Assembly (NCBI GenBank): GCA_003222675.1
Contig: QHWT01000048.1
Span: 62,001 to 126,000 of the forward strand
Reading direction: 5' to 3'
Source: Acidobacteriota bacterium
Lineage (GTDB): Bacteria; Acidobacteriota; Vicinamibacteria; Vicinamibacterales; 2-12-FULL-66-21
Length of the DNA stretch: 64,000 nucleotides
The notes under the pieces are model-generated. The model saw only the letters and a program-made list of their open reading frames with translations, was not told where the DNA came from and ran no database searches. Shown here piece after piece: positions 42,817-61,278 of the stretch. Position 1 is the first letter of the stretch. Every line of letters starts with the position of its first letter. The translations under genes were made by a program, and so were the position numbers.

Positions 42817-45630
42817 ATGCGAAGAACGATCCCGCGGCTGTCGGCTCTCGGCGTCGTCGCGGTTGCGCTGGCGGTGGCGGTGTCGGGCCAGACGGCCAGC
42901 CCCATTCCGCCCATCGAGTTCGAAAAATACACGTTGCCGAACGGGCTTGAGGTCATTCTGTCAGAAGATCACCGGCTGCCGCTCACCGCCGTGAACCTCT
43001 GGTATCACGTCGGCCCGGCGAACGAGGCGGCGGGGCGCACGGGGTTTGCGCATCTCTTCGAACACATGATGTTCCAGGGTTCGAAGCACGTGGCGTCCGA
43101 CACGCACTTCCGGATTCTCGAGGGTGCGGGCGCCAGCCTGATCAACGGCACGACGGATTTCGATCGCACGAATTACTTCGAGACAGTGCCCTCGAATCAG
43201 CTCGAGCTCGCATTGTGGATTGAATCGGATCGGATGGGTTATCTGCTCGACAAAGTGGACGTGGCCGCGCTTGCAAATCAGCAGGATGTCGTCCGCAACG
43301 AACGACGGCAAGGCGTCGAGAATCAGCCGTACGGTCTGGCGGAAGAAGCGATGTTTCATCAGCTCTTTCCGCCAACACATCCCTACTACGCATCCGTGAT
43401 CGGATCGCACGCGGACATCCAGGCCGCTCAACTCAATGATGTCAAGGGCTTCTTCAAGCAGTATTACGCGCCGAACAACGCGAGCGTTGCGATTGTGGGC
43501 GACATCGACAAGACGCACACGAAGCAGCTGGTCGAGAAGTATTTCGGTCCGCTGAAGCGCGGGCCCGACGTCCCGCCGATCACCGTGAGCACGCCCGCTA
43601 TCACCGCCGAACGCCGGCAGACCGTCAAGGATCACATCGAGCTGCCGAGGGTCTATATCGCATGGATTACGTCACCGATCTTCGCGCCGGGTGACGCCGA
43701 TGCCGACATCGCGGCGACCATTCTTGGCGACGGGAAGTCGTCTCGCCTCTATAAGCGGCTCGTCTACGACAAGCAGATTGCACAGCGCGTCGTCGCGCAG
43801 CAGTACTCGCTGATGCTCGGGTCGGTGTTCGACATCGAGGTGACCGCACGTCCAGGGCATTCGGTCGATGAGATGGAGGCGGCGATCGACGCCGAGCTCG
43901 AAGGCTTCCGCCGCGACGGCCCGGACGACACCGAAGTCGAGCGTGCCCGCAACACGATCGAGACGCGCATGGTGCGCGGGCTGGAGACGCTTGGAGGATT
44001 CGGCGGCGTGGCGGATCGGCTGAACATGTACAACCATTTCCTCAAAGACCCCGGGTATCTCCCGAAGGATGCGGCGCGCTACCGGGCCGTCACTCGCGAT
44101 TCGGTGCGCCAATTCGCGCAGGCACAGCTCACGCGAAAGGCTCGCGCCGTCATTTATGCCATCGCCGGGGAACAGGAATTGGGGACGCCGGTCCCGACGC
44201 CGCCGCCGAGCACCGCCAAGGCCGGCGAAGGGGCCGAGTCGATCAACATCGATGCGCCGTGGCGAACCGAGATGCCAAAGTCCGCCGCGTCGCGTCCGCT
44301 TCAGCTCCCGGTGCCGCAGACATTCCGGCTGCCAAACGGGTTGACGGTTCTCTACACCGAGCGTCCGGGTCTACCGATTGTGTCGGCGAACCTGATGATT
44401 CGAAGCGGCAGCGAGTTGAATCCCCCCGACCGCCCCGGACTCGCGGGGTTCACCGCCGCGATGCTGACGAATGGCACGGCGGCGCGAACGGCGCTGCAGA
44501 TCGCCGACGAAGCCGCGCAGCTCGGAGCGTCGCTCTCGACGACCTCGTCGATGGACGCGTCGGCTGTGACGATCAGCGCTCTCAAGCAGAACTTCGCGAA
44601 AGCCGTCGCGCTGATGGCAGACGTCGTGCTGCATCCCTCATTCCCCGGCGAGGAAGCGGAACGTGAGCGCAAGAGTCGCCTCGCCTCCATCGCGGATCAG
44701 CGGTCGAACCCCGCGATCGTCGCGTCGAACGTCACGAACGCGGCGCTCTTCGGTCCCCGGCATCCCTATGGATTCTCCGAGCTCGGGACCGAGGCGTCGG
44801 TGCAGAAAATCTCGCGCGACGAACTGACTGCGTTCTGGAAGAAAAACTACGTGCCTAACAACGCGGCGCTGATCGTCGCAGGCAACGTCACGGGAGCGGA
44901 ATTGAAGGCGCTCGTGGAAACGTCCTTCGGCGCGTGGCCGCGCGGCACGCCGGCGGTTCCGGCTGAAACGATGCCGGCAGGAACCTCGGCGAAGCTGATC
45001 GTCGTCGACATGGGGTCGGCGCAGCAGTCACAGGTGCGTGCCGCGACGATCGCTGCCGCGCGCTCCACGCCTGACTACCCGCGCATGCAAGTGCTCAACG
45101 AGATCGTCGGCGGCCTGTTCTCGAGCCGAATCAATATGAACCTCCGCGAGGAGCACGGCTACACCTACGGCGCGTTCTCGCGGTTCGTGTATCGGCGCCG
45201 GCCTGGTCCCTTCTTCATCGGCAGCGGCATCCGCACGGACGTGACGGCACCCGCGGTCTCAGAGATCATCAAGGAGCTCAAGCGCCTCAGCGTCGATCCA
45301 ATCACAGACGAGGAATTGGCGCTCGGTCGCGATTCGATCGTGCGGTCCCTTCCTGCGGATTTCGAAACGAGTGGCACCGCCGCCGCGGCCCTGTCGAATA
45401 TCTACGTCTACGACCTCGGCACGCGGTACTACTCGGAATTGCCACAACGCATCTCCGCCGTCAACACCGAATCGGTGCTCGGAGCCGCACGCAAGTACCT
45501 TGCACCGGCGAAGATGGTCGTCGTCATCGTGGGAGATCGCGCGAAGATCGAGCCCGAGCTGAGAAAGCTCGACCTCGGCGCGATCGAATTCCGCGACGCC
45601 GATGGGAATGTGCTGAAGAAACAGCCTTAG
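42817..45630 (+). CDS. Secreted M16 (pitrilysin-type) metallopeptidase
   Basis: A 937-residue zinc peptidase made of two fused M16 halves. Signal peptide at 1-26 (VALAVAVSGQTAS). The N-terminal half is active: HLFEH (H79, E82, H83) plus the downstream zinc Glu in QDVVRNERRQGVENQPYG. The C-terminal half (from about 500, FRLPNGLTVLYTERPGLPIV) lacks HxxEH and has YTYGAFSRFVYRR, the substrate-binding R/Y motif. It should degrade peptides in the periplasm. The ribosome site is partly formed by the 170-bp repeat. Confidence 0.92.
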   Translation: MRRTIPRLSALGVVAVALAVAVSGQTASPIPPIEFEKYTLPNGLEVILSEDHRLPLTAVNLWYHVGPANEAAGRTGFAHLFEHMMFQGSKHVASDTHFRILEGAGASLINGTTDFDRTNYFETVPSNQLELALWIESDRMGYLLDKVDVAALANQQDVVRNERRQGVENQPYGLAEEAMFHQLFPPTHPYYASVIGSHADIQAAQLNDVKGFFKQYYAPNNASVAIVGDIDKTHTKQLVEKYFGPLKRGPDVPPITVSTPAITAERRQTVKDHIELPRVYIAWITSPIFAPGDADADIAATILGDGKSSRLYKRLVYDKQIAQRVVAQQYSLMLGSVFDIEVTARPGHSVDEMEAAIDAELEGFRRDGPDDTEVERARNTIETRMVRGLETLGGFGGVADRLNMYNHFLKDPGYLPKDAARYRAVTRDSVRQFAQAQLTRKARAVIYAIAGEQELGTPVPTPPPSTAKAGEGAESINIDAPWRTEMPKSAASRPLQLPVPQTFRLPNGLTVLYTERPGLPIVSANLMIRSGSELNPPDRPGLAGFTAAMLTNGTAARTALQIADEAAQLGASLSTTSSMDASAVTISALKQNFAKAVALMADVVLHPSFPGEEAERERKSRLASIADQRSNPAIVASNVTNAALFGPRHPYGFSELGTEASVQKISRDELTAFWKKNYVPNNAALIVAGNVTGAELKALVETSFGAWPRGTPAVPAETMPAGTSAKLIVVDMGSAQQSQVRAATIAAARSTPDYPRMQVLNEIVGGLFSSRINMNLREEHGYTYGAFSRFVYRRRPGPFFIGSGIRTDVTAPAVSEIIKELKRLSVDPITDEELALGRDSIVRSLPADFETSGTAAAALSNIYVYDLGTRYYSELPQRISAVNTESVLGAARKYLAPAKMVVVIVGDRAKIEPELRKLDLGAIEFRDADGNVLKKQP

Positions 45631-47994: not shown

Positions 47995-48108
47995 GGAAGC
48001 AGCCCGCGCGAAGCGCGGGTTCGGCGGAACGCGTACGGCAACCTTCTCGGCGCCCTTTGCGCCTCCGCCTCGGCGTGAGATCGTCTTCTCGGCGGGTACG
48101 ACGGCGTC
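47866..48108. repeat. Array of the GGCGCAGAG/CTCCGCC type with CCCGCGC hairpin
   Basis: GCGCAGGCGCGGAGGCGCAG, then CCCGCGCGAAGCGCGGG (also at 7350-7370), then CTTTGCGCCTCCGCCTCGG and CGTGAGATCGTCTTC, the inverse of GACGATCTCACG. No gene is supported inside. Confidence 0.65.
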
Positions 48109-48612
48109 CTATGGCACGTCGTACGTCTCGGTCTTGAAGATCCTGAATCCTCGCGCGAGGTAGTTCGACAGCGCGGAGCGGTGATCGAGCGAAGACGTGT
48201 GCAGCCACACGCGCGAGGCGCCCGAGGCCCACGCTTGCTCTACCGCGACGCTGAGCAGGTGCTTGCCCAGGCCGCGGCCGATGAAGTCCGGCAGGATACC
48301 GAAGTACGCGATCTCCACGGATCCGTCGTCCACCGTGCGCAGCTCGAAGTAGCCCGCGGGCGCACCCGCCGACGCCATCACCCACAGCTGGATCGCGGGA
48401 TCACTCAGATAGCGCAGGATGTCCTCGTCCGTCCACGGCAGCCGATCGACCCAGTGATATGCCCGTCCGACTTCGGTGTAGAGATAGCGCCAGAACGATG
48501 GCGCCCGGGCAGTGACGCGCTCGATGCGGACGCCATCGAACGGCGGACCCGCGGCGCGCAAATCGCGCCGGCTGTGCATCTCGAGGTAAGTGCGCCTTGC
48601 GATCGCGCTCAC
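48109..48612 (-). CDS. GNAT family N-acetyltransferase
   Basis: A 167-residue acetyltransferase. The acetyl-CoA loop is GILPDFIGRGLGKHLLSVAV (R-x-x-G-x-G/A form), preceded by the strand VEIAYFG and followed by WLHTSSLDHRSALSNYLARG. The acceptor is unknown. It is the last gene of the aromatic operon, 5 nt after the tyrA stop with a GTG start, so it is read with it, but a role in aromatic metabolism is not known. Confidence 0.8.
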   Translation of the reverse strand: MSAIARRTYLEMHSRRDLRAAGPPFDGVRIERVTARAPSFWRYLYTEVGRAYHWVDRLPWTDEDILRYLSDPAIQLWVMASAGAPAGYFELRTVDDGSVEIAYFGILPDFIGRGLGKHLLSVAVEQAWASGASRVWLHTSSLDHRSALSNYLARGFRIFKTETYDVP

Positions 48613-48617
48613 GAGTG

Positions 48618-49535
48618 CTACTGCTCTCCCCGCGCACGCACCAGGGCCTCGCGCCAGCGCGACGCGCTGGTAAAGACCGATTCGATCTTCTCGCCGTCAC
48701 CCAGCGATGCCCGCAGCTCGGTCATCGTCTTGATCAGCGCGTCGAGCGCGTCACGCAGGACATCCTCGTTCGACGCCGCGATATCGCGCCAGATCTCCGG
48801 TGGGCTCGATGCGAGGCGTGTCGTGTCCAGCAGCCCCGGACCGGCCAGCTCGAGACCGGCGTCCCCTGCGAGCGTGCCCACCACGTGCATCAGGGCACTG
48901 GCGGTGATCTGAGGGAGATGGCTGACGGCACCCACGAGGCGATCGTGCAGATCAGCCGTCATGATGCGTGGCACGGCGCCGACGCCTGTAATGAACGCTT
49001 CGAGCTTTTCGAGCGCAGCGGGAACGACAGCGGGCGCCTGCCCGGAGCTCGGTCGAGGGGTGAGAATCCACGGACGGCCGTCGAACATGTCGGGACGCGC
49101 AGCGGCAAATCCGCCGCTCGCGGCGCCCGACATCGGGTGTCCGCCAATGAAGGTCAGCGAGGCGTTCGCGTCGGCCGCGGCGACGATGAGCCGCTTCGTG
49201 CTGCCGACGTCGGTCACGACGGCGCCTGTCGGCAGGTACTCCGGGAGCTGATCGAGCAGCGCGATGTTCTGCAGGACGGGTGCTGCGAGGATCACGAGGT
49301 CGGCGTCGCCTGCCATGACGAGCGTGTCGCCGCCCACGTCCGCCGCGTGCACGCGCATCGCCGCCTCGAGGACGTGCTTCTGATCGATGGCGATCACGAG
49401 GCTGGACGGCCACCGGCGCTTGATCGCGAGGCCGATGGAACCGCCGATCAGGCCGAACCCGGTGATCGCGATGCGTGCAAACGGACCCGGTTCAGTCGCG
49501 GCGTGCGCTTCCCGCACTTCGATGCGGCGGGTCAT
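48618..49535 (-). CDS. tyrA: Prephenate/arogenate dehydrogenase TyrA
   Basis: An NAD(P)-dependent dehydrogenase that converts prephenate toward tyrosine. The 305 residues include the Rossmann motif ITGFGLIGGSIGLAIKRRWP (22-41), DLVILAAPV, VVTDVGSTKR, the catalytic His in GGHPMSGAASGGF, and RLVGAVSHLPQITASALMHV. No ACT domain is visible. Around residues 160-167 the sequence SSGQAP is encoded by the inverse of the dispersed GAGCTC-type repeat (49035-49057). It starts directly at the aroF stop (TGAATG). Confidence 0.92.
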   Translation of the reverse strand: MTRRIEVREAHAATEPGPFARIAITGFGLIGGSIGLAIKRRWPSSLVIAIDQKHVLEAAMRVHAADVGGDTLVMAGDADLVILAAPVLQNIALLDQLPEYLPTGAVVTDVGSTKRLIVAAADANASLTFIGGHPMSGAASGGFAAARPDMFDGRPWILTPRPSSGQAPAVVPAALEKLEAFITGVGAVPRIMTADLHDRLVGAVSHLPQITASALMHVVGTLAGDAGLELAGPGLLDTTRLASSPPEIWRDIAASNEDVLRDALDALIKTMTELRASLGDGEKIESVFTSASRWREALVRARGEQ

Positions 49536-50594
49536 TCACCGCGATCCGCCCCAGCCGCGTTTCGACACCGGTTCGAGGCAGATGCTGCGGCCGATGGCCG
49601 GCGCGATGATCCGCAGCTCCGCCATGAGGCGGTCGAACTGCGAGGGGAACAACGACTGCGCGCCGTCGCTCAGCGCGTGATCCGGATCGTGATGCACCTC
49701 GATCAGCAGGCCGTCGCAGCCCGCGGCGACCGCCGCGCGCGCCATCGGCGCAACTTTGTCGCGCTTGCCCGTGCCGTGGCTCGGATCCGCGAGCACCGGC
49801 AGGTGACTCAGCTTCTGGACCACGGGGATCGCCGAGATGTCGAGCGTGTTGCGGGTATAGCTCTCGAACGTGCGGATGCCGCGCTCGCACAGCATCACGT
49901 TCATGTTGCCGCCGGCGAGGATGTACTCGGCGGAGAGCAGCCACTCTTCGATCGTCGCGGAGATGCCGCGCTTCAGCATGATCGGCTTCTTCGACCGCCC
50001 GAGCTCGCGCAGCAGCGTGAAGTTCTGCATGTTGCGCGCGCCGACCTGCAGGATGTCGGCGTAGCGCTCGATCAGCTCGAGCTGACTGATGTCCATCACT
50101 TCCGAGACCAGCTTCAGGTTGTGACGGTCGGCGGCCGCTTTCAGCAGGCGCAGGCCTTCTTCGCCGAGCCCCTGGAAGCTGTACGGGCTGCTGCGCGGCT
50201 TGAACGCGCCGCCGCGCAGGACCTTCGCGCCGGCGCGTTTCACGGCGGCCGCGCTCGTTTCAACCTGCTCCTCTGTCTCCGCGGAGCACGGGCCGGCCAT
50301 CACGATGACCTCGTCGCCGCCTATCCGCACGTCACCAATCGTGATGACGGTGTTGTCCGGCTTGAAGGTGCGGCTCGCCAGCTTGTAGGGCTCGGTGATG
50401 CGCAGCACTTCCTGCACGCCGTCGAGGACCTCGATCAGCGCGGTGTCGTAGTTGCGCGAGGATCCGCCGACGGCGCCGAGCACCGTGCGCAGCGCGCCCG
50501 TCGATCGGTGCACGTCGAATCCCATCTCCACGAGCTTGGCGATGACCTTCTGGACCTGCTCGTCGCTCGCCCGTTCCTGCATCACTACAACCAT
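49536..50594 (-). CDS. aroF: DAHP synthase with ferredoxin-like N-terminal domain (type I-beta)
   Basis: First enzyme of the shikimate pathway, joining phosphoenolpyruvate and erythrose 4-phosphate. Its 352 residues have an N-terminal ferredoxin-like regulatory domain (about 1-70, [20 protein letters not shown]) then the TIM barrel: [59 protein letters not shown]. This matches Thermotoga-type enzymes, where the N-domain senses tyrosine; that inhibition is known for those enzymes and is inferred here. It follows aroQ after an 86-bp gap with hairpin repeats. Confidence 0.95.
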
Positions 50595-50624
50595 GACTAA
50601 TCCTCTATTCTAGGTGTCGTGTCT

Positions 50625-50712
50625 TCTTCCGCCTCAAGGCGGAAGCCACAGGATTCTTCGTAAGGAAGCTCGCCACTCCTCTAGTCGTTCTCGTGGCTTC
50701 CGCCTTTAGGCG
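50625..50712. repeat. TTCCGCC..GGCGGAAGCCAC hairpin repeats
   Basis: Two copies: TTCCGCCTCAAGGCGGAAG CCAC at 50628-50650, and CGTTCTCGTGGCTTCCGCC TTTAGGCGGAAG at about 50686-50716. The second overlaps the 3' end of the chorismate mutase gene and shares CTCGTGGCTTCCGCC with the 58-bp element at 36967. Confidence 0.8.
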
Positions 50713-51016
50713 GAAGAGACCCGGCCGCTTCCGACTCCCGGTATTCCTCTTCGGCCACCCGCTCCAGGTGCCGCGCTTCGTCGATGATCCGTTCGAACAG
50801 CCGCTGAATTGCCTGCGGACCCAGCGGGCCCGTGTTGAGCCGGTTGACGTTCGCGAGCACTTCCGCTTCCCGCGTGGGCTGATAGATGTCCATGCGCTCT
50901 TCCCGTTTGATGCGTCCGATCTCGAGCGCGCACGCGGCGCGCGCGTTGAGCAGGCGGACCAGATGCTCGTCGAGCATGTCGATCCGGCGGCGCAGATCGT
51001 CCAGGTCTCCCCTCAC
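50681..51016 (-). CDS. aroQ: Chorismate mutase, AroQ type
   Basis: Converts chorismate to prephenate at the branch to phenylalanine/tyrosine. An all-helical domain of about 90 residues: LDDLRRRIDMLDEHLVRLLN (R and catalytic region), RAACALEIGRIKRE, REAEVLANVN and IQRLFERIIDEARHLE. The start is the GTG at 51016, overlapping the trpA stop (GTGA). The last about 13 residues (SLPPKGGSHEND) are encoded by the TTCCGCC hairpin repeat and are not part of the family domain. Confidence 0.9.
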   Translation of the reverse strand: MRGDLDDLRRRIDMLDEHLVRLLNARAACALEIGRIKREERMDIYQPTREAEVLANVNRLNTGPLGPQAIQRLFERIIDEARHLERVAEEEYRESEAAGSLPPKGGSHEND

Positions 51017-51804
51017 GACAGTCCTTTCAGCCACCGCGTGTAGGCGCCCACGCGGTCGATGAGGTCAGATGACGCCCCGTGCTCGGCGATGACGTTGACG
51101 AGCGCGCTGCCGACTACCGCGGCGTCAGCCCACCGGCCGATCTCGACGACGTGCTCCGGCCGCGAGATGCCGAAGCCAAGCGCGAGCGGCAGGTCCGAAT
51201 GCGCGCGAATGCGGCGCACGAGCGGCTCGGCATCGGCTGCGACGCGGTCGCGCGCGCCGGTCACGCCGAGCCGCGAGATCACATACAGGAACCCGCGGCC
51301 GAGTTCCGCCGACTGTCGTATCCGTTCGTCGGTCGTCGTCGGGCTCAACAGGAAGATCGGATCCATATCGGCATCGACGAGCCTCTGACGGAAGGATCCT
51401 GCTTCTTCCACCGGCAAATCGAGCACGAGCACGCCGTCGATACCCGCGTCCGCGGCCGCGCACGCGAACGCCGCCTCGCCCATCCGCACGATCGGGTTCG
51501 CATACGTGAAGAGCACAATCGGCGCGGCGATCTGCGGCCGGCGCCGGCGAATCATCTCCAGGGTCTTTCTCAGCGTCGTCCCGCTTTTCAGGGCGCGCTC
51601 GGACGCACGCTGGATCACCGGCCCGTCGGCGAGCGGATCGGAGAACGGCACGCCGACTTCGAGGACGTCCGCTCCGTTCGCGCCGAGGGTCATCAGGATT
51701 TCCGCCGACCGATCCAGGTTCGGATCCCCCGCCGTCACATATGCGACGAGCCCCGGCCGGCCGCTGGCCTGCACGGCGGCAAACGCATCGGCGATCCGCG
51801 CCAT
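51013..51804 (-). CDS. trpA: Tryptophan synthase alpha subunit
   Basis: Cleaves indole-3-glycerol phosphate and passes indole to TrpB. 263-residue TIM barrel. LEVGVPFSDPLADGPVIQRA holds the catalytic Glu and the substrate Asp. VLVLDLPVEEA, FLLSPTTTDER, FLYVISRLGVTGAR and GFGISRPEHV are normal. It overlaps trpB (ATGA) and aroQ (GTGA), so the three are translationally coupled. Confidence 0.97.
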   Translation of the reverse strand: MARIADAFAAVQASGRPGLVAYVTAGDPNLDRSAEILMTLGANGADVLEVGVPFSDPLADGPVIQRASERALKSGTTLRKTLEMIRRRRPQIAAPIVLFTYANPIVRMGEAAFACAAADAGIDGVLVLDLPVEEAGSFRQRLVDADMDPIFLLSPTTTDERIRQSAELGRGFLYVISRLGVTGARDRVAADAEPLVRRIRAHSDLPLALGFGISRPEHVVEIGRWADAAVVGSALVNVIAEHGASSDLIDRVGAYTRWLKGLS

Positions 51805-53012
51805 CAGCGGAGCGCCTCCTGGATGCTCAACACGTCTTTGTCTCCGCGTCCGGAGAGATTGATGAGGAGCAGCGATTCGCGGGGCATCGACGGCGCGAGC
51901 CGGCACGCGTGCGCAACGGCGTGCGACGACTCGAGCGCCGGCAGGATGCCTTCTTCGCGAGCGAGACGCTGGAATCCCGCCAACGCATCCTTGTCGTCGA
52001 TCCACGTGTACTCGGCGCGACCGATGTCGCGCAGCCATGCGTGCTCGGGTCCCACCGCCGCATAGTCGAGGCCTGCGGAAATCGAGTGCGTCAGCTCGAC
52101 GTTTCCGTCGTCGTCCTGGAGGATGTAGCTGCGCGTGCCCTGCAGCACTCCGGCGCTTCCGCCGGCAAACCGCGCGGCGTGATCCCCCGAACGAATGCCG
52201 CGTCCGCCGGCCTCGACGCCGACGAGGCGCGTGCCGGTGTCGGCGACGAACGCGTCGAAGATTCCCATGGCGTTGCTCCCGCCGCCCACGCACGCGACGA
52301 TGGCGTCAGGGAGCCGGCCGAATTGCGCCAGGCACTGCGCGCGCGCCTCGTTGCCGATCACCGACTGGAACTCGCGCACCATCAGCGGGTAGGGGTGCGG
52401 GCCGAGCACGGATCCCAGCAGGTAATACGTGGTGGTCACGTTCGTGACCCAGTCGCGCATCGCCTCGTTGATCGCATCCTTCAGCGTGCGCGCGCCCGCG
52501 TTCACCTCGATCACCTCAGCGCCCAGCAGCCGCATGCGGAACACGTTCAGCGACTGCCGCGTCATGTCCTCGGCGCCCATGTAGACGTGGCAGTCGAGGC
52601 CGAGCAGCGCGCATGCCGTTGCGGTCGCCACGCCGTGCTGCCCCGCCCCCGTCTCCGCGACGATCCGTCGCTTTCCCATGCGCGCGGCGAGCAGCGCCTG
52701 GCCGAGCGCGTTATTGATCTTGTGTGCGCCGGTGTGCGCAAGATCCTCGCGCTTGAGAAGGATGCGCGCGCCGCCGAGCGACGCGGACAAGCGGCGCGCT
52801 TCGTACAGCGGTGTCGGCCGTCCCACGTAATCGCGCAACAGTCCCATCAGCTCCCGGCGGAACGCCTCGTCCTCGCGGGCGCGGAAGTACGCGGCGGTCA
52901 GCTCTTCCACCGGAGCGACGAGCGTCTCCGGGACGAACCGTCCGCCATACGGACCGTAATAGCCGCGCGCATCAGGATCGCGCGCGCCGAACACCGGAGC
53001 GAACTCAGTCAT
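51804..53012 (-). CDS. trpB: Tryptophan synthase beta subunit
   Basis: PLP enzyme that joins indole and serine to tryptophan. 402 residues. [31 protein letters not shown] (PLP lysine), [38 protein letters not shown] and [12 protein letters not shown]. It is of the main TrpB1 type. It overlaps trpF and trpA by 4 and 1 nt. Confidence 0.98.
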
Positions 53013-53623
53013 GACTCGCGAAGCGCGGCAAACAGCGCGCGCAGCTTCGCCGGATCCTTTCTGCCGGGCGAGACTTCGATGCCCGACGATGCGTCGACGC
53101 CATACGGATGGACCGCGGCTATCGCGTCCACCACGTTGCCGGCATGCAGGCCGCCGGACAGAATCACGGGCCGGTGCCGCGCGACGGCCGACGCGACAGA
53201 CCAGTCGACCGCGCGCCCTGTTCCACCGCGCCGGACCGGATCGTACGCGTCCAGCAACACCATCGCGTTCGACGGCACAGCGCCCGCCGCGCCGCCGTCT
53301 TGTGCATTACGCAGCGGCAGCGCCTTGATGACACGCGTCGGGAGCGTCGCGTATTCCTCCGCCGTCTCATCGCCGTGCAACTGCACCGCGCCCAGGCGCG
53401 CGAAGCGCGCAATCGCGAGCACGGTGGGGATCGGCTGGTTCACGAACACGCCCACAGGCGTGATGAACGGCGGCAGCCGCGCCACGATCGCGCGCGCGGC
53501 GATCGGCTCGATGTAGCGTGGGCTGTGAGGCCAGAAGACGAATCCAAGCGCCGATGCCCCGAGCTCCGCGGCGAGCAGCGCGTCTTCTGCCGTCGTGATG
53601 CCGCAGATCTTGACGTGCGTCAT
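53009..53623 (-). CDS. trpF: Phosphoribosylanthranilate isomerase
   Basis: Isomerises phosphoribosylanthranilate in tryptophan synthesis. A 204-residue TIM barrel with the N-terminal [20 protein letters not shown] (catalytic Cys), the [16 protein letters not shown] loop, [16 protein letters not shown], the catalytic Asp in LLDAYD and [15 protein letters not shown]. It overlaps trpC and trpB by 4 bp each. Confidence 0.95.
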
Positions 53624-54471
53624 GCGTCCCCCCTCGACTTCGCTCGCGGCAGGCCGCTCGACATCGAGGAGGCCGCAGCCTCGCGAAGCTGCCGCAGCGC
53701 GGCGCCGGGACTCACATGCGTGATCAGCCGTTCACCGACCAGGAACGCGTGGTAGCCGGCCGCCTCGAGACGATAGAGATCCGCCGCGCTGCCGAGGCCG
53801 CTCTCTGCAACCGCGATCGCCTCTCGAGGCATCACCGCGATGAGATCGTCGTGGACCTGCGGATCGACGCTCAACGTTCGCAGATTGCGGCTGTTGACCC
53901 CAATCACGTGCGCCCCCGCGTCAACCGCGCGCGCGAGCTCGGCGCGATCGTGCACCTCGACGAGCGCCGCGAGGCCGAGTTGGGCGGCGTCGCGGAGCAG
54001 CTCCACGAGCGCGGGTTGATCGAGGGCCCCGACGATCAGCAGGACCGCGTCCGCACCCGCAGCGGCTGCCTCGAGGACCTGGTACCGCGTCACGATGAAA
54101 TCCTTGCGCAGGAGCGGCAGCGACACGGCGGCCCGGACCCGTTGCAGATCGTCGAGCGATCCGTCGAAGAACGTTGGCTCGGTCAGCACGGAAATGGCGG
54201 CAGCCCCCGAGCTCTCAAACGACAAGGCCAGCGCCGCGGCGTCATAGTCCCCGCGGAGGATGCCTCGTGACGGCGAACGTCGCTTGCACTCGGCAATCAC
54301 GCGCGGCGACGGCGAGTCGAGGAGCGCCGACACGAACCGCGCGCCGTCCGCGTGGCGTGCCGCGGCCGCACGTTCGAGCGCCGCCTCCGGCATCTGGCTG
54401 CGGCGTACGTCTGAGATGCGACGTGCACCGGCCACGATTGCGGCCAGCAAATCCGGTGTGGTCGCGCTCAT
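53620..54471 (-). CDS. trpC: Indole-3-glycerol phosphate synthase
   Basis: Closes the indole ring from CdRP. 283 residues. VIAECKRRSPSRGILRGDYD, ISVLTEPTFFDGSLDDL, LPLLRKDFIVTRYQVLEA, IGVNSRNLRTLSVDP, AVAESGLGSAADLYRL and FLVGERLITH follow the family order, with the catalytic Lys and Glu present. The last about 20 residues ([13 protein letters not shown]) are atypical and are encoded by repeat-like DNA (CTCGACTTCGCTCGCGGCAG). It overlaps trpD and trpF. Confidence 0.96.
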   Translation of the reverse strand: MSATTPDLLAAIVAGARRISDVRRSQMPEAALERAAAARHADGARFVSALLDSPSPRVIAECKRRSPSRGILRGDYDAAALALSFESSGAAAISVLTEPTFFDGSLDDLQRVRAAVSLPLLRKDFIVTRYQVLEAAAAGADAVLLIVGALDQPALVELLRDAAQLGLAALVEVHDRAELARAVDAGAHVIGVNSRNLRTLSVDPQVHDDLIAVMPREAIAVAESGLGSAADLYRLEAAGYHAFLVGERLITHVSPGAALRQLREAAASSMSSGLPRAKSRGDA

Positions 54472-55490
54472 GCTGCCGCTCCGTTGTTCGACAGCGCCAC
54501 GAGCGTCTCGAGGACGGCCGCCGCGCGGCCGCTGTCGAGCGCGTCAGCCGCCATCGCGATCCCATCCGGCACGGTTCGCACGATGTCGGCGATCAGCAGC
54601 GACGCGCCCGCATTCAAGAGCACGATATCGCGCGCGCCGCCGTGTTCACCGCCGAGGATGCGCCGCGCGATGGCAGCGTTCGCCGCCGCGTCGCCGCCGC
54701 GCAGCGCTTCGGGCGTTGCCTTCGCCAGACCCACATCCGCCGGGTGTAAATAGAACGTATTCACCGCGCCGTCGCGACACTCCGAGACCTTCGTATACCC
54801 CGTCGTCGAGATCTCATCGAGTCCGTCCGCTCCGTGCACGACCCACGCGCGTTCGGCGCCGAGCTGCGCGAGCGACCTGGCGACGAGCTCGGTCAGCTCC
54901 GGACGTGGCACGCCCACGAGCTGCCGCGTCGCCCCAGCAGGGTTCGTCAATGGACCGAGCAGGTTGAAGGCTGTCCGGACGCCGAGCTCACGGCGCGTCT
55001 GAGCCGCGTGGCGCATCGATGGGTGAAACGTGGGCGCAAACAGAAACGCGATGCCCGCCCGATCGAGGCAGCGTTCCGCGACGTCGGGTGTCGCCGCGAC
55101 GTTGACGCCAAGCGCCTCGAACAGATCGGCGCTGCCGCAACGGCTCGAAACACTGCGGTTGCCGTGCTTGGCAACGCGCACGCCGCAGGCCGCGAGCACC
55201 AGCGCGGCCACCGTGGACACGTTGAACGTGTGGGCGCGATCGCCGCCGGTGCCGCAGGTGTCGAATACGGGCGCGAACGATCGGCTCAATTTCGTCGCCT
55301 TCGCCCTCATCGTTCTCGCCAGTCCGACGATCTCGCCGGGGCGCTCTCCTTTCATCGCGAGCCCGATCAGGAAGCCCGCGATCTGCGACGGCTGCGCCTC
55401 GCCGTCCATGATCGCTTCCATCGCCGACGCCGCTTCCTCCACGGTCAAGTCGATGCGATGCTGCAACTTCTCGATCAGACCTGCGAACAT
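54468..55490 (-). CDS. trpD: Anthranilate phosphoribosyltransferase
   Basis: Joins anthranilate and PRPP. 340 residues. MKGERPGEIVGLARTMR, FDTCGTGGDRAHTFNVSTVA (PRPP loop), VAKHGNRSVSSRCGSADLFE, LFAPTFHPSMRHA and FNLLGPLTNPAGATRQLVGV are typical. It begins 16 nt inside the trpG 3' end. An upstream ATG-less extension is not needed. Confidence 0.96.
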   Translation of the reverse strand: MFAGLIEKLQHRIDLTVEEAASAMEAIMDGEAQPSQIAGFLIGLAMKGERPGEIVGLARTMRAKATKLSRSFAPVFDTCGTGGDRAHTFNVSTVAALVLAACGVRVAKHGNRSVSSRCGSADLFEALGVNVAATPDVAERCLDRAGIAFLFAPTFHPSMRHAAQTRRELGVRTAFNLLGPLTNPAGATRQLVGVPRPELTELVARSLAQLGAERAWVVHGADGLDEISTTGYTKVSECRDGAVNTFYLHPADVGLAKATPEALRGGDAAANAAIARRILGGEHGGARDIVLLNAGASLLIADIVRTVPDGIAMAADALDSGRAAAVLETLVALSNNGAAA

Positions 55491-56050
55491 GTCAGCTCCA
55501 CGAAGTTGCGGAGAATCTTGCGTCCCTCGCCCGTCAGCACCGACTCGGGATGAAATTGCACGCCGTGCAGCGGCCACTCGCGGTGGCGCAGTCCCATGAT
55601 GATGCCGTCTTCGGTGCGCGCGGCGATCTCGAGCGGGCCGGGCGCGGGCGCCGCGACGATCAGCGAGTGATAGCGCCCCGCGACGAACGGTTGTGACACG
55701 CCGCTGAACACGCCGCGACCGTCGTGCTGCACGGAAGATGTCTTGCCGTGCATGAGTACGGGTGCGCGTACTACGTCGCCGCCGAACGCGTATCCAATGG
55801 CCTGATGGCCAAGACAGACCCCGAGCACCGGCACCTTCGAGCCCATCTTGCGGATCACCTCCACGCTGATGCCCGCATCTTCAGGACGTCCTGGCCCGGG
55901 GGAAATGACAATGCGGGACGGATGCATCGCCTCCACTTCGCCGAGCGTTATCCCGTCGTTGCGCCGGACGGCGGGCGCGTGGCCCAGCTCGCCCAGGTAC
56001 TGCGCGAGGTTGAACGTGAACGAGTCGTAGTTGTCGATGAGGAGAATCAC
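55475..56050 (-). CDS. trpG: Anthranilate synthase glutamine amidotransferase subunit
   Basis: Supplies ammonia to TrpE from glutamine. 191-residue class I amidotransferase: LLIDNYDSFTFNLAQYLGEL, ISPGPGRPEDAGIS, the nucleophile in PVLGVCLGHQAIGYAFGG, VAGRYHSLIV and the catalytic His/Glu in GVQFHPESVLT. It may also serve p-aminobenzoate synthesis, because no pabA is seen. It starts at GTG overlapping the trpE stop. Confidence 0.96.
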   Translation of the reverse strand: MILLIDNYDSFTFNLAQYLGELGHAPAVRRNDGITLGEVEAMHPSRIVISPGPGRPEDAGISVEVIRKMGSKVPVLGVCLGHQAIGYAFGGDVVRAPVLMHGKTSSVQHDGRGVFSGVSQPFVAGRYHSLIVAAPAPGPLEIAARTEDGIIMGLRHREWPLHGVQFHPESVLTGEGRKILRNFVELTCSQV

Positions 56051-57537
56051 AGTTCGGTTTCCGCCATCTCAATCGCCTGGAGAAGCGCGCGCGCCTTGTC
56101 ACGCGTCTCCTCGTATTCAGCCGCCGGGTTCGAGTCCGCGACGATGCCGGCGCCGGCCTGGACGCGCGCGATCCCGTCGCGAATCGTGATCGTGCGGATC
56201 GCGATACAGAAATCCAGGTTCGCCGCGAAGTCGATGTAGCCCACCGCGCCGGCGTACAACTCGCGCCGCGTCGGCTCCAGCTCGGACAGGATCTGCATCG
56301 CGCGGATCTTCGGCGCGCCGGAGACGGTGCCCGCGGGAAAGCATGCAACGAGCGCGTCGAGATGGTCGTGCTCCTCCGCGAGACGCCCCTCGACCGTGGA
56401 CACCAGGTGCATGACGTGCGAGTAGCGCTCGAGTGCCATGTACTGGGGCACCCGGACGCTGCCGTACTCACAGACGCGCCCGACATCGTTGCGCCCGAGG
56501 TCGACGAGCATCACGTGCTCGGCGCGCTCCTTCTCGTTCCGCTTCAACTCCTCAGCGAGGCGCAGATCCTCTTCGTCGTTGCGGCCGCGTGGCCGCGTGC
56601 CCGCGATCGGATGCGTCTCGACGCGCCTTCCTTCGACGCGCACGAGCATCTCCGGCGACGACCCGACGATAGCGAGACCGCCCATGCGGATGTAATACAT
56701 GTAAGGCGAGGGGTTCACGTGGCGCAGCGCGCGGTACACGGTGAACGGCTCCGCCTCGACTCTCGTCTCGAAGCGCTGCGACAGCACCGCCTGGTAGATG
56801 TCTCCAGCGGCGATGTGTTCCTTGATCGTGCGCACGCCTGATTCGAACGTCTCGCGCGTGACGTTCGACCCCACCGTCGGCGACGGCCCGCGCCGCGGCG
56901 GCGTGTGCGAGAGGCCGCGCTCCAGCTCGCGCTCCAGAAACTGGATCTTCGCGCACGCGAACTGGTACAACGCACTGAGATCTTCGTCCGCGGTGACCCG
57001 CGCGTTGGCGATCACGAGAATGCGATGCTTCACGTGATCGAATGCCAGCACCGTATCGAACAGCATGAAGCCGGATTCGTCCTCGACGCCCGCCGTCTTC
57101 GCCCAGGCAGCGTTCGCCCACGCCGTGTCGAGCGCCGGCTCGAAGCCCACTGACGCGTCGTAGCCGATGAAGCCCACGGCACCGCCAGTGAACCGCGGCA
57201 GGTCGGGCACGAACGGCGCGCGGAACTCCGTCATGAGCCGCCGCAGGACCGGCACGAACGGCTCCTTCGTGTCGCTCGTGACGCCCGATCGATCGATGGC
57301 CGTCTTGCCGTCTTTCGCCCGAAGCACCAGGAACGGATCCTTCCCGAGGAACGAATACCGCGCGACCTGCTCCCCGCCTTCCACGCTTTCGAAGAGGAAC
57401 GCGTAGTCGGAGTGCTCCGCGATTTTCAGAAAGGCGGACACCGGGGTGAGAAGGTCCGCCATGATCTCCTTCACCACGGGGACGAACGTGCCGCGCCTTG
57501 CCAGCTCCACGAAATCTTCAAAGGATGTCTGCTTCAT
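56047..57537 (-). CDS. trpE: Anthranilate synthase component I
   Basis: Makes anthranilate from chorismate. 496 residues. The N-terminal region carries the tryptophan-binding LLESxE-type site as LFESVEGGEQVARYSFLG, so feedback inhibition by Trp is likely. The catalytic part has GDIYQAVLSQRFE, PSPYMYYIRMGGLAIVGSSP, PIAGTRPRG, VDLGRNDVGRVCEYGSV, FPAGTVSGAPKIRAMQ and VQAGAGIVADSNP. Its ATG overlaps the aroDE stop by one base (TGATG). Confidence 0.97.
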   Translation of the reverse strand: MKQTSFEDFVELARRGTFVPVVKEIMADLLTPVSAFLKIAEHSDYAFLFESVEGGEQVARYSFLGKDPFLVLRAKDGKTAIDRSGVTSDTKEPFVPVLRRLMTEFRAPFVPDLPRFTGGAVGFIGYDASVGFEPALDTAWANAAWAKTAGVEDESGFMLFDTVLAFDHVKHRILVIANARVTADEDLSALYQFACAKIQFLERELERGLSHTPPRRGPSPTVGSNVTRETFESGVRTIKEHIAAGDIYQAVLSQRFETRVEAEPFTVYRALRHVNPSPYMYYIRMGGLAIVGSSPEMLVRVEGRRVETHPIAGTRPRGRNDEEDLRLAEELKRNEKERAEHVMLVDLGRNDVGRVCEYGSVRVPQYMALERYSHVMHLVSTVEGRLAEEHDHLDALVACFPAGTVSGAPKIRAMQILSELEPTRRELYAGAVGYIDFAANLDFCIAIRTITIRDGIARVQAGAGIVADSNPAAEYEETRDKARALLQAIEMAETEL

Positions 57538-59003
57538 CACTCGACCATCTTCAATTGAGCCGGCTCGAATCGGCCCCGCAGCGTCTGCTCCGCCGCATCC
57601 TGGAAAAGCCCGGCGGGCGGACGCTGTCCCGTCCAGATTTCGAATTGACGTTCGGCCTGCGCGACGAGCATTTCGAGGCCGCCGATGACGGTGCAGCCGC
57701 GCGCCTGCGCGGCCTTCAGCAGCGGCGTGAGCGGCGGATCGTAGATGAGGTCGTACACGATCCGGCCGTCGAGCGCGACATCAACCGGCATTCCCGGCAC
57801 CATGCGGCTGCCGACGCTCGTCGCGTTGACGAGCAGATCCCACGAACCCGGCACCGGAGGCCAGGCCGTTGTGGTTGCGCCAATCGCCGCGGCGGCTTCG
57901 CGCGCCGAATCTGGTCGCCGCGCCGAAATCGCGACTGCCGCGCCCGCGCGGATCAGGCCGAGGGCAACCCCGCGTGCGGCCCCGCCTGCGCCGAGAATCG
58001 TGGCGCGCAGGCCGGCGGTCTTCGTCCGCCGCCGTAGCGGCTCGAGAAAACCGTCGACATCCGTATTCGTTCCGATCCACCGGCCGCCCGTGACGGTGAT
58101 CGTGTTCACTGCTCCGGCGTCGCTCGCGATCGGTGTCACCTCGTCGAGCAGCGGCACCACGTCCATCTTGAGCGGCGTCGTCACGCTTGCGCCGCGCAGG
58201 CCGATGGCATCGGCGAACCGGCGGAAGTCGGTTGCGTCGTTTGTCTCGAGCGGCACGTAAGCGGCGTTCAGGCCGCGCGCGGCGAAGCCCGCGTTGTGCA
58301 TGGCCGCGCTCAGCGAGTGCATCACGGGACGGCCGACGACGCCATAAACGCGCGTATCGTGGCGAATCCGGCGAAACCGGAATTCGTGGAGCATCCGCCT
58401 GACGGGCAGCTGCCCCGGCGCGATGGCATCGCCGGCATACGTCCAGCGGCTCCTGAACCGCGCCGCCAGGATGCGCGACACGACGCCTGACGCGCCCATC
58501 CCGATCAGAATCGTCGGCTGGTCTGACGTTCCCACCTTCAATAGCGGAATCAGATCCGACAGCGTCTCGGTCGTGGTCGCGAGCTTCACGATCTCCGCAC
58601 CGGTGCGGCGCATGGCGGCGAGCAGGCCGGGAAGATCCGTGGGCGTGCCGGTGAAGTCGTGCGTCGAGACGATGACGCCGCGGCCTTGCCGTTCCGCGAT
58701 GATCGGCTCGCACAGCGCGTCGAAATCGACGTCAATGTATTCGGCGCCGAGCGCGTGCGCCTCCCGGAGAATGCGCAGGCGCTCCTCGTCGCTTCCTTCG
58801 AACCGCCCGCCTGCGCGAACCGGACGGCACGTCACGATCACGGGCGTGCGACGCCCCGCGAGCGCGCCGGCGGCGTCCGGGCGTTCCAACATGTCGAGGC
58901 GAAGCTCGACGAGATCGGCCTCGGCTTCGGCCGCTTCGCGTGCGCGCACGATCGCTTGCACCGTGCGGCCGGTGGCTACCACGCAAAGCTGGGGATCGGG
59001 CAT
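57537..59003 (-). CDS. aroDE: Bifunctional 3-dehydroquinate dehydratase/shikimate dehydrogenase
   Basis: A fusion of shikimate steps 3 and 4, 488 residues. The N-terminal type I dehydratase (1-215) has ADLVELRLDML, VIVTCRP, IVSTHDF and the Schiff-base Lys in EIVKLATT. The C-terminal dehydrogenase (about 222-480) has VVGRPVMHSLSAAMHNAGF, VTTPLKMDVVPLLDEV with the catalytic Lys, GAVNTI, NTDVDGF, the NADP loop ILGAGGAARGVALGL and GLEMLVAQAERQF. Such fusions are common in plants and some bacteria. The ATG at 59003 lies 9 nt after the attenuator stem, so an upstream GTG at 59108 is rejected. Confidence 0.95.
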   Translation of the reverse strand: MPDPQLCVVATGRTVQAIVRAREAAEAEADLVELRLDMLERPDAAGALAGRRTPVIVTCRPVRAGGRFEGSDEERLRILREAHALGAEYIDVDFDALCEPIIAERQGRGVIVSTHDFTGTPTDLPGLLAAMRRTGAEIVKLATTTETLSDLIPLLKVGTSDQPTILIGMGASGVVSRILAARFRSRWTYAGDAIAPGQLPVRRMLHEFRFRRIRHDTRVYGVVGRPVMHSLSAAMHNAGFAARGLNAAYVPLETNDATDFRRFADAIGLRGASVTTPLKMDVVPLLDEVTPIASDAGAVNTITVTGGRWIGTNTDVDGFLEPLRRRTKTAGLRATILGAGGAARGVALGLIRAGAAVAISARRPDSAREAAAAIGATTTAWPPVPGSWDLLVNATSVGSRMVPGMPVDVALDGRIVYDLIYDPPLTPLLKAAQARGCTVIGGLEMLVAQAERQFEIWTGQRPPAGLFQDAAEQTLRGRFEPAQLKMVE

Positions 59004-59042
59004 AAATAAAAAAGCCCCCTCAACCGCGGGATTGAGGGGGCT
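59004..59042 (-). terminator. Attenuator terminator before aroDE
   Basis: On the minus strand AGCCCCCTCAA (59042-59032), an 8-nt loop, TTGAGGGGGCT (59023-59013), then TTTTTTATTT. It is a perfect 11-bp stem with U-tract ending right at the aroDE ATG. Its 5' arm can pair instead with the G7 tract of the leader (59086-59080). Confidence 0.93.
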
Positions 59043-59068
59043 CTCGAAAATTGCGTGTCGCGACGTGC

Positions 59069-59158
59069 CTAGGCGATCGCCCCCCCTGTAGACGCAGACC
59101 ACCACCAATACGACGCGGGGGTCGCGATAAGGGCCAGGAGCGTAAATCGGTTAGACAC
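59069..59158 (-). CDS. trpL: trp leader peptide with three consecutive Trp codons
   Basis: A 29-codon open frame starting at GTG: SNRFTLLALIATPASY, then WWW (codons at 59107-59099), then SASTGGAIA and stop (59071-59069). Three TGG codons in a row by chance are very unlikely, and their position before a terminator and the trp genes fits attenuation. The G7 tract begins 12 nt after the last Trp codon. A ribosome stalled at Trp would leave G7 free to pair with the terminator 5' arm. One that goes on to the stop codon would cover it. The start codon is the weakest part; TATCGT lies 10 nt before it. Confidence 0.85.
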   Translation of the reverse strand: MSNRFTLLALIATPASYWWWSASTGGAIA

Positions 59159-59168
59159 GAGAACCGAG

Positions 59169-59197
59169 ACGATAACACAGGAAGGTCCAATGCTCAA
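59169..59197 (-). promoter_or_regulatory. Probable promoter of the aromatic supra-operon
   Basis: Minus strand: TTGAGC (59197-59192), a 17-nt spacer, TATCGT (59174-59169), start expected near 59162 just before the leader peptide. The -35 box lies inside an ATGCTCA/ATGTCGA repeat (59187-59212). Confidence 0.5.
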
Positions 59198-59289
59198 TGT
59201 CGAATGCTCACCACGGTTTCCAGGCTCCTCAACCGGCACTGCATCCCCGGCGTCGAAAGTGCAGGGGTGTGGGCGATGGGGGAAGGGTG

Positions 59290-59340
59290 GGGGTCAGATC
59301 TCGATTTTTCGATGCTGTCGAAAAATCGAGATCTGACCCC
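59290..59340. repeat. Perfect 23-bp inverted repeat, REP/RAYT-like palindrome
   Basis: GGGGTCAGATCTCGATTTTT CGA (59290-59312), a 5-base loop TGCTG, and the exact inverse (59318-59340). It lies between divergent promoters. The GGGGTCAG end recalls REP elements mobilised by Y1 (RAYT) transposases. No such transposase is in the window. Confidence 0.85.
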
Positions 59341-59389
59341 AACAGCACGCCAACAGCTCCCCACGGCGGCGCCCGGGAGCTGGTTCGCC

Positions 59390-59418
59390 TTGACCGAACG
59401 CCCTAGACGGTCTATAAA
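59390..59418 (+). promoter_or_regulatory. Promoter of the S55 protein gene
   Basis: TTGACC (59390-59395), a 17-nt spacer, TATAAA (59413-59418), then 12 nt to the ATG at 59431. The leader would be about 6 nt, without Shine-Dalgarno. Confidence 0.75.
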
Positions 59419-59430
59419 GGTTTAAAGTAC

Positions 59431-61278
59431 ATGAAGATAAGGGTTGTTCTGCTTTCCGTGGCACTGGCCGCCTTCGGCTGGGTCCGTGTCCCTGCGACCA
59501 CTGCGCTCATGCCGCTCGATGAAATCAAGCCAGGCATGACTGGCATCGGCCAGACGGTGTTCGAGGGCACCGAGCTGCAGGACTTCAAGGTCCACATTCT
59601 CGGCGTCTTGAAGAACGTGCAGGGGCCGCAGCGCAGCCTCATTCTGGCGAAGCTCGAGGGAGGCCCGCTGGCGCAGACCGGCGTCATCGCCGGGATGAGC
59701 GGCAGTCCGGTCTATATCGACGGCCGCCTCATTGGGGCGGTTTCGTACGCCATCGGATCGTTTCCAAAAGAACCGATCGCGGGCATCACGCCAATCCGCG
59801 AAATGATCGACGCGACGGCGGACTCGCCGCGCCGCGCCGCGGCTCCCGCGCAGGCACGTATCGACCTGCCGATCACGCGCGAGGGGCTTGCCGCTGCGGT
59901 CCGCGCGACGTACGCGCGCATCGCAATCTTCGCCGATCGCGCGTCCGACGTGCAGAGCATCGGCCTTCCCGCGGCGACCGGCGGTCAACTCGGTGCGCTG
60001 CTGCGCCCGATCGCCACGCCGCTGGTGATGAGCGGTGTGAACGCGCAGACGGCCGATCTCCTCTCGTCGATTTTCAAGGACGGCGGCTTCGAGCCTATGC
60101 TCTCTGGAGGCGCGAGCGCCGAGGCGCCGAAATCGACGGGGCCCCTGCGGCCGGGCGATCCCGTGGGCGTGTCGCTCTTGTCGGGCGATGCGGACTTCGG
60201 CGCAACCGGCACGGTGACGCACATCGATGGGGACCGCGTCTACGCCTTCGGACATCCCTTCTTTAACTTCGGTCCGGCGACGTTTGCGATGACGCGCGCG
60301 TACGTCTACACGTCGCTGCCAAGCCTGATGTCGTCCTTCAAGATCGCAACGCTCGGCGACGTGATCGGCACAGTACAGCAGGATCGCGCGACTGCGATCG
60401 CGGGCACGCTGGGTAAGGGCCCGGCCCTCATCCCGCTCAACATCACGCTCGAGTCCGAACACGCGCCGCGGCGGTCGTTCCATTACGCCGTGGTCAACGA
60501 CCAGATGTTCACGCCACTGCTCACCTACGTGGCGATCTTCAACACGCTCGGCAATTTCGAGCGCCAGGTCGGATCGGCCACGTTCACCGTGAAGGGTAAG
60601 GCGCGCTTCGAGCAGCACTCGGACCTCGACTACGACGACATCTTCACCGGCGACAACCCGATCACGGGCGCCTCGGCATACGTCGCAGGTCCGATCACGA
60701 TGCTGCTGTCGAACGACATCGAGCCGGTGAACGTGAAGAGCGTGGATCTCTCGATTCAGACTTCAGAGGATTCGCGCACGTCGAACATCGAGCGCGTGTG
60801 GCTCGACGAGGTACGTCCGCGCGCGGGACGCACCGTCCCGCTGAAAGTGCTGACGCGCAGCTACCGGGGCGCGGAGAAGATCTCGACCATCCCGATCGAA
60901 ATCCCGGCGAACGCCGCCGGTCAGCTCACCGTGATGGTGACCGACGGCCATCAATTGAATCAGATCGAGCAGCGGGAGCTGCGCCGCACGCTGCAGCCGC
61001 AGAGCGTCGCGCAAATCATTCGGGCGCTTAATGAGACGCGCCGCAACAATCGACTCTACGTCCGGCTCCTCACCGGCACGCCCGGCGCGGTCGTCAACGG
61101 CGAAGCGCTGACGTCGCTGCCGCCGTCCGTGCTCGCCGTGCTCGAGGGGGATCGGAGCGGCGGGGACTTTACGCCGATTCGAAGCGCCACCCTCGGGCAA
61201 TGGGAACTGCCCATGGACTCGGCCGTCAGCGGCACCCGCGCGCTGACGATCGATCTCGATACCCATCCAGGCCGATAG
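59431..61278 (+). CDS. Exported SpoIVB peptidase S55-domain protein
   Basis: A 615-residue protein. Signal peptide at 1-26. The S55-type domain begins at MPLDEIKPGMTGIGQTVFEG and contains the serine in VIAGMSGSPVYIDGRLIGAV, with YAFGHPFFNFGPATFAMTRA as a further conserved stretch. The C-terminal half is beta-rich (LPIPIEIPANAAGQLTV-like region, VMVTDGHQLNQ). SpoIVB itself is a sporulation signalling protease, but such proteins are common in non-sporulating Acidobacteria with unknown targets. Four bp separate it from the next gene. Confidence 0.85.
   Translation: MKIRVVLLSVALAAFGWVRVPATTALMPLDEIKPGMTGIGQTVFEGTELQDFKVHILGVLKNVQGPQRSLILAKLEGGPLAQTGVIAGMSGSPVYIDGRLIGAVSYAIGSFPKEPIAGITPIREMIDATADSPRRAAAPAQARIDLPITREGLAAAVRATYARIAIFADRASDVQSIGLPAATGGQLGALLRPIATPLVMSGVNAQTADLLSSIFKDGGFEPMLSGGASAEAPKSTGPLRPGDPVGVSLLSGDADFGATGTVTHIDGDRVYAFGHPFFNFGPATFAMTRAYVYTSLPSLMSSFKIATLGDVIGTVQQDRATAIAGTLGKGPALIPLNITLESEHAPRRSFHYAVVNDQMFTPLLTYVAIFNTLGNFERQVGSATFTVKGKARFEQHSDLDYDDIFTGDNPITGASAYVAGPITMLLSNDIEPVNVKSVDLSIQTSEDSRTSNIERVWLDEVRPRAGRTVPLKVLTRSYRGAEKISTIPIEIPANAAGQLTVMVTDGHQLNQIEQRELRRTLQPQSVAQIIRALNETRRNNRLYVRLLTGTPGAVVNGEALTSLPPSVLAVLEGDRSGGDFTPIRSATLGQWELPMDSAVSGTRALTIDLDTHPGR

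Follow-up and report, generated by a model that had tools for sequence, protein, structure and literature searches.

Upstream of an eleven-gene aroDE-trp-tyrA cluster in the window (the whole 64,000-nt stretch of the Vicinamibacterales genome that was analysed) lies an element that we read, with a probability of roughly 0.93, as a ribosome-mediated transcription attenuator. A short leader ORF with tandem Trp codons is followed by an intrinsic terminator ahead of the first structural gene, and a strand near the end of the ORF (element 2) can pair with the 5' arm of that terminator (element 3) in place of the 3' arm (element 4). These elements and their conservation, two mutually exclusive helices that covary, and a constrained geometry of promoter and start codon can all be seen in the related loci, and judged by them the putative switch is conserved across the order Vicinamibacterales.

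Leader, promoter and gene cluster

All features of the switch and its operon lie on the minus strand. The leader ORF (59069..59158) encodes a peptide of 29 aa (VSNRFTLLALIATPASYWWWSASTGGAIA, the GTG read as Met; C-terminal part ...SYWWWSASTGGAIA) and extends from a GTG start codon at 59158-59156 to a TAG stop codon at 59071-59069. Codons for the operon's own amino acid are clustered in it, three of the 29 being the tandem TGG codons at 59107-59099 that are kept in relatives and would serve as control codons. Beside this run stands a TAT Tyr codon (59110-59108), proposed as a second control codon, so that the window's leader has one Tyr codon versus three Trp codons. An earlier reading of the sequence alone (the sequence-only reading) had reported a short ORF with three tandem TGG codons and had placed the attenuator at 59001-59158, coordinates that proved correct to the base.

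The predicted promoter consists of a -35 box TTGAGC (59192..59197), which deviates from consensus at two positions and is TTGACA or TTGACG at the same place in relatives, and, after a 17-nt spacer, a -10 box TATCGT (59169..59174) that equals the consensus used and is exact in many relatives. A TTGACA-N17/18-TATCGT-like promoter is predicted in 90/100 related loci, with a score of at least 13 in 63/100 loci compared to 0.1% of shuffles. The in-frame leader start of the window follows the predicted -10 box by 10 nt, and in 46 of 90 loci a start codon lies 9-12 nt past this box in the frame of the leader, as opposed to 0 and 1 loci for the two remaining frames; counting ATG only, the numbers are 26 in frame versus 0 and 0. 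Given that transcription usually starts 6-7 nt past the -10 box, a start codon at 9-12 nt would leave only a few nt of 5' UTR, and the leader peptide of such loci would be nearly leaderless. The sequence-only reading depended on transcripts not starting downstream of the leader, and the predicted promoter indeed sits upstream of it. Farther upstream of the promoter, at 59290-59340, there is a perfect 23-bp inverted repeat with a 5-nt loop (GGGGTCAGATCTCGATTTTTCGA), REP/RAYT-like, that was not found at any of the fetched loci of relatives.

Family models identify 11 genes after the leader, in the order aroDE-trpEGDCFBA-chorismate mutase-DAHP synthase-tyrA. The first, aroDE (57537..59003; PF01487, PF08501, PF18317), encodes a type I 3-dehydroquinate dehydratase together with a shikimate dehydrogenase and overlaps trpE (56047..57540; TIGR00564 above cut-off) by 4 nt. 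It is followed by trpG (55475..56050; TIGR00566 above cut-off), trpD (54468..55490, start inferred at an internal ATG; TIGR01245 above cut-off), trpC (53620..54471; PF00218, NF001377), trpF (53009..53623; PF00697, NF002298), trpB (51804..53012; TIGR00263 above cut-off), trpA (51013..51810, start inferred; PF00290), an AroQ-type chorismate mutase gene (50681..51034; PF01817), a DAHP synthase gene (49536..50594; PF00793, TIGR01361) and tyrA (48618..49535). The latter encodes a prephenate/arogenate dehydrogenase whose best NCBIfam matches, to prephenate dehydrogenases, fall below the curated cut-offs, and its position is the same in the clusters of relatives. The family models thus bear out the aro, trp, chorismate mutase and tyrA identities assigned from the sequence alone, with tyrA at a sub-cut-off level. 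As neighbouring genes share a few bases from aroDE through chorismate mutase and the DAHP synthase gene abuts tyrA, it is very likely that aroDE to tyrA form one transcript. A scan of both strands of 48000-59450 picked out no terminator-like site besides the attenuator hairpin, against a chance expectation of 5.3. The proposal that the attenuator controls the entire aro-trp-tyr cluster fits both the overlapping genes and the lack of another terminator. The operon includes tyrA and lacks pheA, which the genome carries on another contig.

Competing helices and their conservation

Element 2 (GGGGGGGC, 59079..59086) is located within the leader ORF, with its G7 run (59080-59086) near the ORF's end, and is complementary to element 3 (GCCCCCTC, 59034..59041), the strand common to antiterminator and terminator. 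The terminator hairpin AGCCCCCTCAA-TCCCGCGG-TTGAGGGGGCT (59013..59042) has 11 perfect pairs and an 8-nt loop; its minimum free energy (MFE) fold comprises 16 pairs at -27 kcal/mol. The U-rich tail (59004..59012), whose first T residues the terminator scan assigns to the stem, reaches the ATG of aroDE (59003-59001). The succession of G7 tract, perfect 11-bp hairpin and U-tract ending at the aroDE ATG that the sequence-only reading had described was therefore located in full. While the 3' arm of the terminator is still unmade, element 2 (59086-59079) is predicted to pair with element 3 (59041-59034).

Comparison with related loci argues that both helices are real. Helix covariation was scored in an alignment (A2) of 40 sequences against 500 shuffles and against partners slid along the alignment. 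Pairing reaches 96.6% in the antiterminator helix 2:3, where both sides have changed in 20 cells, and 98.9% in the terminator helix 3:4, with 22 such cells; in neither case did any of the 500 shuffles score as high, and pairing fell to 35-62% with slid partners (45-62% for helix 2:3). Because element 3 is common to both helices, U-to-C changes in it (e.g. at column 110, in 9 sequences) are accompanied by compensating A-to-G changes in elements 2 and 4. The typical triple across loci is GAAGAGGC / GCCTCTTC / GAAGAGGC, and that of the window's family is GAGGGGGC / GCCCCCTC / GAGGGGGC, the window itself having GGGGGGGC as element 2. When terminators were swapped among loci, the fit of element 2 dropped from 23.6 for its own terminator to 21.2 ± 0.34 (maximum of 5000 swaps, 22.3). 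Both the covariation and the swap test point to a mutually exclusive antiterminator that uses the terminator 5' arm, and the idea that the G7 tract is the antiterminator partner of this arm, raised from the window alone, is upheld by the pairing and covariation of helix 2:3.

We also asked how a ribosome would bear on these folds in 84 loci in which element 2 had been placed automatically by complementarity to the terminator 5' arm. When the first Trp codon was occupied by a ribosome, the 2:3 fold was obtained in 84/84 loci, a result that is partly built in by the choice of element 2 and is weaker than the covariation. MFE folds still give 2:3 in 56/84 loci without a ribosome, and element 2 is paired with upstream sequence in only 21/84 folds. 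A general 1:2 protector hairpin was considered and is unsupported by these folds. As 2:3 often forms without a ribosome, a strong protector like that of Escherichia coli is probably not general, and the basal state would have to rest on the speed or position of the ribosome. Element 2 falls within the leader ORF in 78/84 loci; its median distance is 19 nt measured from the first Trp codon and 12 nt measured from the last, and in the window it begins 12 nt past the last TGG. Twelve nt is about the edge of the footprint of a stalled ribosome, so element 2 should remain free while a ribosome is halted at the control codons. The stop codon of many relatives comes 12-13 nt after the end of element 2, and a ribosome paused there would shield no more than the final few bases of the element.

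From this arrangement we infer the following sequence of stalling, read-through and termination. Transcription would begin a few nt ahead of the 29-codon ORF. Under a shortage of charged tRNA-Trp, the leading ribosome would stall on the TGG run and leave element 2 free to pair with newly made element 3, which would block the 3:4 terminator and allow RNA polymerase to continue into aroDE-trpEGDCFBA, the chorismate mutase and DAHP synthase genes and tyrA. When Trp is ample, the ribosome would pass over element 2, within the ORF and just before its stop codon, permitting the terminator to form and to end transcription at the ATG of aroDE. A lack of charged tRNA-Tyr would probably lead to the same read-through. 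Points that weigh against this scheme are the 2:3 folds obtained without a ribosome, the distance from element 2 to the stop codon in many relatives, the GTG start and deviant -35 box of the window, and four related loci with a single Trp codon.

At the level of the order, 162 Vicinamibacterales genomes were searched, aroDE was found in 148 of them and 100 loci were taken. trpE directly follows aroDE in 97/100; of the other three, two end at the edge of a contig or stretch and one (L049) has aroDE beside a tyrA-like gene. Wherever the contig suffices, the cluster nearly always runs trpEGDCFBA and usually continues with chorismate mutase, DAHP synthase and tyrA. An upstream short ORF with WW or WxW occurs in 90/100 loci versus 11.5 ± 3.3 in dinucleotide shuffles, and at least three Trp codons within 7 codons occur in 71/100 versus 1.1 in the shuffles. 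Five further loci show W..W or W...W, as read from the output, raising the number with at least two clustered Trp codons to 95/100. Automatic detection missed some true cases with bulged terminators or a single Trp codon, which were inspected by eye. The only locus of the 100 in which no leader was found is L049, with aroDE beside tyrA. Taken together, Trp codons, reading frame, antiterminator element and hairpin are kept in relatives and both helices carry compensatory changes, the pattern expected by the sequence-only reading. A covariance model (R1) built with the window sequence included has a single match in the 7.16-Mb genome, at this locus (E 2e-14), and in most relatives likewise one match per genome at the same locus.

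Four of the 100 loci (L083, L090, L100 and L106) hold a single Trp codon, their element 2 and terminator hairpin being the same as elsewhere, and in most of them Tyr or Phe codons are nearby; these leaders have possibly lost sensitivity to Trp or shifted towards other aromatic signals.

Tyrosine codons and alternative readings

In 89/90 leaders, from 14 families, a Tyr codon stands no more than 3 codons away from the Trp cluster. Tyr makes up 18.9% of the other residues near the cluster versus 1.4% in the remainder of the leader (Fisher p about 1e-57, with the qualification that the sequences are related and not independent), which marks codons of a second amino acid as enriched in the control region. 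On the basis that Tyr codons are interleaved throughout the lineage and that the operon ends with tyrA, we propose that the attenuator senses Tyr as well as Trp, a proposal towards which the leader sequences tip the balance slightly.

It could also be that the attenuator responds to Trp alone and that the Tyr codons go unsensed, serving as an unstructured A/U-rich region, for spacing or to tune the nascent chain; we put this at somewhat under even odds. Leaders of the E. coli type function with Trp codons alone, and the window has only one Tyr codon next to its three Trp codons. Against a pure Trp attenuator stand the presence of Tyr in nearly every leader, at shifting positions and with both codons in use (TAT/TAC = 73/43), and the behaviour of Phe, which is equally A/T-rich and yet shows no enrichment beside the Trp cluster in the 90 leaders (5.4% versus 5.4%). 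As an internal control, the His leaders of the same lineage (see below) have Tyr in only 1/15 cases, and the operon itself encodes tyrA.

Whether the alternative structures instead, or additionally, govern translation of aroDE is a second question. The 3' arm of the hairpin (GAGGGGG) is the only Shine-Dalgarno-like stretch of aroDE in the window, and the hairpin ends 9 nt ahead of the aroDE ATG. Yet nearly every relative has a U-rich tail after the hairpin, and in many of them the aroDE match begins 20-180 nt farther down and thus off the hairpin; the common factor among relatives is the intrinsic terminator, and we consider a mainly translational switch improbable.

That a Trp-binding protein or direct tRNA binding exerts the control might be expected from the best-known similar cluster, the aro supra-operon of Bacillus subtilis, in which the trp genes are embedded with aro genes and tyrA in one transcription unit under TRAP/anti-TRAP control. 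In the window's cluster the trp genes likewise sit with aro genes and tyrA, but the gene order differs and TRAP is absent: TRAP (PF02081) and T-boxes (RF00230) were found in 0/12 genomes, and no match to TrpR models was found in the window's genome or 11 relatives, whereas the control genomes (B. subtilis in the case of TRAP) scored positive in each search. This renders such control highly unlikely. Finally, although a hairpin with a U-tract cannot by itself discriminate, an ordinary terminator of an upstream transcript beside a chance Trp-rich ORF is refuted by the comparison, given the excess of Trp codons (71 observed versus 1.1 expected), the covariation of element 2, the fixed distance between promoter and in-frame start and, in the window, a neighbouring gene (59431, plus strand) that runs away from the leader.

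Related leaders and known systems

Outside the order, a Trp-rich ORF with a terminator precedes trpE or aroDE-trpE in several families (L234-L236, L265, L266, L269, L271, L274, L275, L276 and L317), with terminator sequences that are unrelated in most. Covariance-model matches outside the order are mostly weak terminator matches; an aroDE-trpE leader was found in only one genome among them (G197) and in another (G187) by ORF scan. In another family of the phylum, f37, outside the class, aroDE-trpE is preceded by a very short leader and terminator, with MRATSNWWWYC (L317:2752-2835) or ...LWWWPSSE (L269) as the peptide, and these leaders may reflect shared ancestry or transfer. Upstream of trpE in three genomes outside the order (L261, L262 and L264), aromatic-rich short ORFs with one Trp codon, read by eye as MAIFSFLRYGWRF, MMDHFFWRRAT and MMADGFFWRSDFKM, precede a GCCGTGG...CCACGGC-type terminator and are possible Phe plus Trp leaders.

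In one relative, a Phe-rich leader (MRRPAFPFACSFAGFIAGREAV) with a terminator lies before a chorismate mutase-prephenate dehydratase gene at L314:448-560 (G085:C27:145047-145159). No conserved leader was found upstream of pheA in the window's genome and near relatives, though some have a hairpin, and a Phe counterpart is therefore not general. His leaders were seen upstream of hisG at 15/16 loci scanned, those of the window's genome and 14 relatives. The window's genome has a His-rich leader (MKQLRSNLQMFSLTHHHCRHHHSCPGGPVDLRH) and terminator hairpin before its his genes (L324, on G000:C9, upstream of hisG at 43945-44439); His leaders also precede his genes in G054 and in G326, the latter outside the class, where a leader starting MTVIRHHHHH and a terminator stand before hisG and hisC (L316:453-553; G326:C6:160952-161052).

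The mechanism is classical attenuation, and Rfam does not recognise the family. In neither the window nor 20 relatives did any Rfam family reach its gathering score; a relaxed search returned a sub-threshold match of the window to RF00513 (Trp_leader; 17.3 bits versus a gathering score of 41, E 0.87) and otherwise mostly chance-level matches and a nearby palindrome. The trp leader of E. coli and other gammaproteobacteria follows the same logic, likewise with a tandem-Trp leader ORF and an antiterminator competing with an intrinsic terminator. Element 2 follows the leader ORF in E. coli, whereas here it lies within it, and the nearly leaderless start, the interleaved Tyr codons, the absence of TrpR and an operon with aroDE first and tyrA last are further differences.

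The trpL leader of Sinorhizobium meliloti has Trp codons, is not known to share the Tyr pattern and governs trpE(G) only, compared to the whole cluster proposed here. It resembles our element in the lack of transcriptional repression and in its start, being leaderless with the 5' end of the transcript at the ATG of the leader ORF (PMC7298713). The trp attenuators of the actinobacteria Corynebacterium and Streptomyces carry two or three UGG codons and, as here, a complementary triple common to antiterminator and terminator, but theirs is gGCC-rGCy-GGCC and concerns trp genes only, versus GAAGAGGC-GCCTCTTC-GAAGAGGC here; ahead of operons for tyrosine or histidine, the same survey reported finding no RNA structures (PMC1262725). 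Supra-operons are discussed in PMC1173090, whose Table 7 lists a Desulfovibrio vulgaris aroA'-aroB'-aroQ-pheA-aroF-tyrA-trp cluster with a putative attenuator; as far as that table goes, this is a database prediction only, and gene order and lineage differ from those here.

Almost no attenuator with a named function had been described in Acidobacteriota (PMC2965389), and we found no acidobacterial trp leader in the open-access literature, although subscription papers may mention one. What appears new is the family as such, along with the covarying layout that it keeps across the order with element 2 in the ORF, the joint Trp/Tyr run and its occurrence in this phylum. Comparison thus supports the Trp attenuation proposed in the sequence-only reading, which had missed the Tyr codons, the nearly leaderless start and the spread through order and phylum.

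A whole order of an abundant soil phylum carries a well-defined, covarying Trp attenuator, which would put shikimate genes and the synthesis of Trp and Tyr behind one switch. Because the Tyr codons are conserved, the sensing of two signals can be tested directly, and the element would add a new RNA family as well as functional names for short ORFs that annotation often skips. Related Trp, His and Phe leaders occur in the same or other families of the phylum. We give even odds to the broader scheme suggested by these leaders, in which one attenuator would read Trp and Tyr, and not Phe, through interleaved codons and set a single shikimate/Trp/Tyr transcript, Phe and His being served by leaders of their own; if it is true, leader-peptide attenuation would be a main amino-acid control system of Acidobacteriota.
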